Shown piece after piece: positions 32,770 through 34,268 of a DNA stretch of 64,000 nt. This DNA is from Pirellulaceae bacterium (GTDB lineage Bacteria > Planctomycetota > Planctomycetia > Pirellulales > Pirellulaceae): assembly GCA_026004775.1 (NCBI GenBank), contig BPJU01000006.1, positions 186,001-250,000 on the forward strand, in the 5' to 3' direction. Position 1 is the first letter of the stretch, and each line of letters starts with the position of its first letter. The translations under genes and the position numbers were made by a program. The notes below the pieces were generated by a model that was given only the letters and a program-made list of their open reading frames with translations, did no database searches and was not told the DNA's origin.

Positions 32770-33017
32770 TAGGCTTTTCGTGCCGTTCGGCGGGTGAAGC
32801 AAAAGAACCGGGCAGCGGTTGGTCTGCGGGCGCCCATCGGGTGGCCCGTGACAACACGGGGTGACTTTGGCATCCGGTTCAGCACGTAACGGGATCGCTC
32901 GCCTGCCCTGGCAAAAACCTATCCGCAAGCCAGCGCGCGATTGAACCTCGCTCGTTTCCCGCGGAGACAATTTCGAAATGGCTTTTCATCCGACAGGAAC
33001 GCAGCAAGAAGTGTGAG

Positions 33018-33099
<82 letters not shown>

Positions 33100-33289
33100 A
33101 ATGCTCGCAGCTCGATAGGACCTCCTCATTGGAAAGTCTGCGAGGGCCGAGCCGTTCTGTCAAGCGACAATACCCGGTCCCTCGCGCCGCGCCGGCGCGA
33201 CGTCTTTGGACGATGGACACTACCGGACGATAGCTTCCGTAAACAAGCCTCCCCGCTTCGGTTGCCGGCAGACCACGTTTACATTGGCA

Positions 33290-33503
33290 GTAACCGTTCA
33301 CGGTTAGCAAATGAAGAACACGATATTGGTTTGTGACGTAGCGGAAGTCGCAAGGCGGAACGCGCTAGCGTTCCGCCGTAAGACTTCCGCATTGAAAAAA
33401 ATCCTCGCGAAGCGTCTACTTTTCGTAAGCGGAACACGCAAGTGTTCCGCACTTTCAATGATGAGGCACCGAACGACCCTCAAATTCAACCGTGAACGGT
33501 TAC
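33290..33503. mobile_element. MITE-like element with IS66-type ends and 8-bp target duplication
   Basis: A 214-base element bounded by perfect 16-base terminal inverted repeats: GTAACCGTTCACGGTT at 33290-33305 and its complement at 33488-33503. The octamer CATTGGCA abuts both ends (33282-33289 and 33504-33511), as expected for a target-site duplication. IS66-family ends start with GTAA and generate 8-bp duplications. Inside there is no coding capacity. A 50-base compound hairpin covers 33341-33390: GCGGAAGTC/GACTTCCGC enclosing GGCGGAACGC/GCGTTCCGCC. A second covers 33429-33450: GCGGAACAC, loop GCAA, GTGTTCCGC. CATTGAAA (33390-33397) and TTTCAATG (33453-33460) can also pair. It would need a transposase from elsewhere in the genome to move. 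Confidence 0.82.
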
Positions 33504-33584
33504 CATTGGCAAAACCCCGGGACGTTCGCACCGCTGCTATGCCGCACGATCGAGCACTCGTTGCCGGACGGTACGGTCGGTCGA

Positions 33585-34268
33585 TCAGGCTTCCATGTGG
33601 CAATGATTGTCGAGCAGTTCCAGCAGGTCGAGCGGACGATCCAGGACGCGGACGGCACCGGCTTCGATTAACTCATGCGTTTCGCGAAATCCCCACGAAG
33701 CCCCCACGGGCAGCATACCCGCGGCCCGAGCCGTGAGCATATCGATGCGGGTATCACCCAGGAAAACCAACTGATGCGACTCGATGCCCAGTTGCTCGCC
33801 AATCCACAACGCACCGGCCGGATCGGGCTTGCGCGTGGCCCCCTCGCGCACTCCCAACACGACCCGAAAGGCATGGCTGGGAAAGAAACGAGCCACGCAC
33901 ATTTGGGTAAAGTCGTGGGGTTTGTTGGACAGAACGGCTGTCGGTATCTGCCGCTGCCGCAACTGTTCCAGAAGCTGTTCCACACCCGGGTAGGGCCGCG
34001 TATGCACGTGCCAGCCCTGTTGGTAATGGGTGCGGAACCGCTCCATGCACCGCTTCACGACCTCGGGGGTCTGGAGAGCACGAGGGATGGCTCGCTCCAT
34101 CAGTATCTGCACCCCCTCGCCCACCAGATAGCGGTACTCGTCCAACTCATGAGGCGGCAATCCTTCGCCGGCAAGAGCTTTGTTGGCCGCTTCGGCAATG
34201 TCGCGCAACGAATCGATCAGCGTACCATCCAAGTCGAATATGACGCCCCGAAAAACCGAATGACGCAT
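33585..34268 (-). CDS. HAD-family hydrolase, phosphoglycolate phosphatase-like
   Basis: A 227-residue haloacid dehalogenase-type phosphatase. Motif I is FDLDGTLIDS at the N-terminus (nucleophile Asp), motif II VLSNKPHDFT, motif III around RKPDPAGALW, and motif IV GDTRIDMLTARAAG. The helical cap domain between motifs I and II fits the Gph/PGP group, which removes phosphate from 2-phosphoglycolate, but substrate assignment within the family is not reliable. It is cytoplasmic and transcribed divergently from the GH5-like gene. The MITE lies 81 bases beyond its 3' end. Confidence 0.9.
   Translation of the reverse strand: MRHSVFRGVIFDLDGTLIDSLRDIAEAANKALAGEGLPPHELDEYRYLVGEGVQILMERAIPRALQTPEVVKRCMERFRTHYQQGWHVHTRPYPGVEQLLEQLRQRQIPTAVLSNKPHDFTQMCVARFFPSHAFRVVLGVREGATRKPDPAGALWIGEQLGIESHQLVFLGDTRIDMLTARAAGMLPVGASWGFRETHELIEAGAVRVLDRPLDLLELLDNHCHMEA

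Follow-up and report, generated by a model that had tools for sequence, protein, structure and literature searches.

Between a tRNA-Leu gene and a HAD-type gene in the genome of a Pirellulaceae bacterium lies a short segment with inverted repeats at its ends and hairpins inside, and this locus raises the question of what the segment is, which transposase brought it there and whether its hairpins have a role in the host. The window, i.e. the whole stretch of 64,000 nucleotides analysed, was read directly and subjected to a repeat search. A preliminary description had reported a 214-base element with identical 16-base inverted repeats starting with GTAA and a flanking 8-bp duplication, holding no gene and two hairpins that share the motif GCGGAAC. 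Each of these features was found, and all coordinates were correct:

33017–33099, minus strand: tRNA-Leu gene (TAG anticodon; Rfam match)
33282–33289, no strand: left copy of the 8-bp target duplication, CATTGGCA
33290–33503, plus strand: MITE of 214 bp, mosaic of subfamilies A2 (nearest to the first ~45 nt) and A1 (nearest to the remainder)
33290–33305, plus strand: left terminal inverted repeat GTAACCGTTCACGGTT, 100% complementary to 33488–33503
33341–33390, plus strand: internal hairpin 1, GCGGAAGTC...GACTTCCGC enclosing GGCGGAACG...CGTTCCGCC (repeat search, fold, conservation)
33429–33450, plus strand: internal hairpin 2, GCGGAACAC-GCAA-GTGTTCCGC (repeat search, fold, conservation)
33488–33503, minus strand: right terminal inverted repeat, GTAACCGTTCACGGTT on this strand (repeat search)
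33504–33511, no strand: right copy of the target duplication, CATTGGCA
33585–34268, minus strand: HAD-type ORF

The perfect 16-nt terminal inverted repeats and the length of 214 bp are those of a MITE, and an imperfect palindrome (AACCGT-TC-ACGGTT) lies inside each 16-bp end. Within the window, the initial 14 bases of this end were found only at the two ends of the element, even allowing 2 mismatches. Those ORFs of at least 90 aa that overlap the element all extend beyond it on to flanking DNA, so that there is no internal transposase gene, and an Rfam search of the element gave no match inside, with only the tRNA matched nearby. Both neighbouring genes were confirmed and are on the minus strand, the element lying downstream of the HAD gene and upstream of tRNA-Leu.

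Other copies, for which the preliminary description had advised a search, are abundant. In the 6.14-Mb genome, the initial 14 bases of the MITE end were counted 170 times and a reversed-pattern control not once, and a pattern with both ends 170–200 bases apart recovered at least 46 complete exact-ended copies. BLAST in the genome returned the same family at 84–100% identity. The alignment set comprised 48 elements of 210–214 bp with distinct flanks, a few evident segmental duplicates included, and the family is dispersed over unrelated sites. The 8-bp target duplication is perfect in 31 of the 48 copies and matches at 7 of 8 bases in another 11 (42/48 in total), compared with a match of at least 7/8 in 5 of 2256 pairs when left and right flanks were paired at random. 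Four copies (L032, L059, L300 and L306) lie in repeats, and because the intact, empty relatives of these repeats contain the target once, the copies are insertions that duplicated 8 bp. The relatives searched do not share the HAD/tRNA-Leu neighbourhood, and no matching locus was found there for an empty-site comparison; of the nine best loci with a HAD homologue, only that of the window's own genome has a tRNA gene close by. With ~48 copies, their duplications and the related empty sites, 33290–33503 belongs to a non-autonomous MITE family and is an ordinary, well-documented genomic parasite.

Two subfamilies were distinguished, A1 (19 copies, mostly 213 bp, ~96% alike within) and A2 (29 copies, mostly 211 bp, ~93% alike within), which are ~85% alike to each other. 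The copy in the window is A2-like over its first ~45 bases and A1-like afterwards, and further A1/A2 mosaics are present (L054–L057); such copies presumably arose by recombination or gene conversion within the family. Placement was evaluated with the element removed first and with control positions 500–700 bases distant: 7 of 48 MITE sites were inside ORFs of at least 200 codons, against 126 of 192 control positions. The insertions avoid genes and are mostly outside them. Selection against gene disruption would suffice to produce this intergenic placement, so function is not needed to explain it.

The arms of hairpin 1 (33341–33363 and 33368–33390) are 87% complementary and those of hairpin 2 (33429–33437 and 33442–33450) 100%. 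The RNA fold of the element is far stronger than that of shuffled sequences (z −9.3), and the consensus fold retains both hairpins, which are present in nearly all 48 copies, hairpin 1 of A2 lacking one base on each arm. Such conservation, the strong fold and the location of copies between genes would fit a host-useful RNA or terminator cassette retained for its hairpins, yet we regard this as very unlikely. The preliminary description had suggested terminators, and this part did not hold: both hairpins lack a following T-run on either strand, a search of the element yielded no terminator-like site, and the hairpins, although conserved, appear not to be intrinsic terminators. No Rfam family was matched, a sample of 391 other genomes of the phylum did not contain the MITE body, and purifying selection against insertion into genes would equally yield the intergenic location. 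Paired positions have changed on both sides in some copies (6/66), mostly following the A1/A2 split, with nearly all double changes concentrated in 4/66 pairs. Since they track the subfamilies, these changes may be single events, and the covariation argues only weakly for an RNA role of any kind. Most likely the hairpins have no host role and are inherited internal sequence or transposition aids instead.

As to the transposase, elements of 1.49–1.58 kb coding for the IS66 TnpC only, recognised by its IS66 DDE domain (PF03050, E 4e-25 to 3e-36), were found in related genomes. The ends of seven full single-ORF elements of this kind, GTAACCGTTCAC.. or GTAACTGTTCACGGTT (the latter e.g. in L266), are identical to the MITE end at 12–15 of 16 bases, and related full elements from the same order as the host reach up to 15/16. 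Perfect 8-bp duplications, the length seen in the MITE copies, flank three full elements (L247, L262 and L269); two end-matching IS66 elements (L115 and L249, genomes G007 and G245) have duplications of 9 bp, not 8 bp. In organisation these elements correspond to the ISBst12 group within the IS66 family; its member ISDge4 has a single 449-aa transposase, the TIR GTAACTGCTCAGCA, an 8-bp duplication and observed transposition (PMC12898284). The MITE resembles this group, e.g. ISDge4, in its GTAAC-type ends and 8-bp duplication (PMC12898284), but it lacks a transposase gene, and its internal sequence was not found in any full element; similarity between the MITE and every full-length IS66 found is confined to the ends. 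The GTAA start, ends like those of the single-ORF elements and the shared duplication length give good support to an attribution to IS66 of the ISBst12 type. As a separate observation, 9-bp duplications in G007 flank a single-ORF IS66 as well as two small MITEs with GTAACCGTTCACGGGG ends (L115, L116 and L120).

Within the window's own genome, two different TnpC queries gave 0 matches to an ISBst12-type TnpC, the PF03050 matches being the three-gene IS66 and its fragments, and no autonomous parent with the MITE ends was found. The IS66-type ends proposed in the preliminary description, and its search for an IS66 with matching ends, were therefore borne out in the relatives, three of whose elements carry 8-bp duplications, and not in this genome, where the resident IS66 has other ends. 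The missing same-genome parent lowers the claim of direct parentage and leaves that on the type of ends unaffected. The autonomous partner would have been lost, have diverged or be absent from the assembly.

This non-autonomous MITE family was very probably moved in trans by an ISBst12-type IS66 TnpC, the identity of the mover being inferred from the ends. In such a mechanism, the single-ORF TnpC would recognise the GTAACCGTTCACGG ends of the MITE in trans and insert it at a staggered 8-bp cut, the repair of which would give the CATTGGCA duplication; the partner would later have been lost or diverged, or would lie outside the assembly.

Two other sources of the transposase have to be weighed, both resident in the genome. 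The only IS66 present is one group of the canonical three-gene type (tnpA, tnpB and tnpC), with three open tnpC copies and adjacent tnpA- and tnpB-sized ORFs, and it might mobilise the MITE despite differing ends. Its ends, GTAAGCGTACACCGGCACCAT, share GTAA.CGT.CAC.G with the MITE end and agree at 11/16 positions; the remaining 5/16 differ and the ends are conserved among its own copies, which compares poorly with the 12–15/16 of single-ORF IS66 elsewhere. No 8-bp duplication was seen in four inspected copies (L074–L077), where no target duplication of any kind was noted. On the poor end match the resident IS66 was rejected as a candidate, and it is probably not the mover; we would give this reading a small chance, as we would the related one in which the MITE family survived its own transposase and was, or still is, moved across IS66 subgroups by the resident TnpABC. 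The MITE could also be an internal-deletion derivative of a 2.1-kb element (C2:592197–594283) and be moved by the transposase of that element. Both MITE ends and both subterminal stretches are indeed present there, with a duplication CCTCAATC, and an ISKra4-like transposase lies between the ends (NCBIfam E 4e-42; its 145 bits fall short of the family cut-off, 205). However, the ISKra4-like part carries inverted repeats of its own inside the MITE ends (19 bp, GGGTGCAGGTTGCACTTTG; GGGTGCAGG ends) and is flanked by MITE sequence duplicated over 9 bp, GAATTTGAG, and another copy, on C1, shares these boundaries and is not surrounded by a MITE. The ISKra4-like IS was thus rejected as a parent, and C2:592197–594283 is an IS inserted into a MITE, which leaves a deletion origin with almost no probability.

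In both ISKra4-like copies (L072 ~515–2388, within G000:C2:592197–594283, and L084 from base 1), for which a 9-bp duplication was recorded, a +1 frame change at CTTTTTTTCCC divides the transposase in two; as both copies share it, programmed slippage is possible. A second repeat family (L071, L073, L080 and L123–L127) has the same 14-bp ends and, next to them, other subterminal sequences, GGTTGGTTGGCC on one side and GGTCAGAAAATGAACGG on the opposite one. Its members measure 0.37–1.8 kb, with variable contents and no clear target duplications, and the present MITE has repeatedly inserted into them. One member (L125) adjoins an apparent IS110-type transposase gene, and regular repeats forming a putative CRISPR array lie beside another (L123 1377–2475; G000:C1 ~264400–265500). 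Tandem repeats with a 215-bp period, bounded by GTAACCGTTCACG ends, were seen in a Pirellulaceae MAG (L166 2499–3091).

For comparison beyond this genome, MAGs of planctomycetes, Desulfobacterota, Nitrospirota and other groups also contain the 16-bp end. MITE-like end pairs with 8-bp duplications are present in about 20 of the foreign loci retrieved; these elements (among L129–L198) share the 14–16-bp ends of the MITE, whereas their bodies are unrelated to it, with no similarity beyond 19 bp. The MITE family itself is apparently lineage-specific. Among described bacterial MITEs, MITEPsy1 and MITECca01 have been linked to IS5-type and IS982 elements (PMC3189936, PMC9769881). Like the present family they are short, non-autonomous, bounded by inverted repeats, multi-copy and presumed to be mobilised in trans, but they belong to IS families other than IS66, and the genome of MITECca01 retains intact parent copies, which the present genome does not (PMC9769881). 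No described IS66-type MITE family in planctomycetes was found in the openly licensed literature.

The nested insertion on C2 shows that an IS lying within a MITE copy can mimic its parent. Should the resident TnpABC move the MITE after all, end recognition in IS66 would be looser than thought. The locus belongs to a clean MITE family of ~50 copies that has well-defined ends as well as target duplications and empty sites and is linked to a little-studied single-ORF branch of IS66, and identical 14–16-bp ends recur on unrelated MITE-like elements across several phyla.
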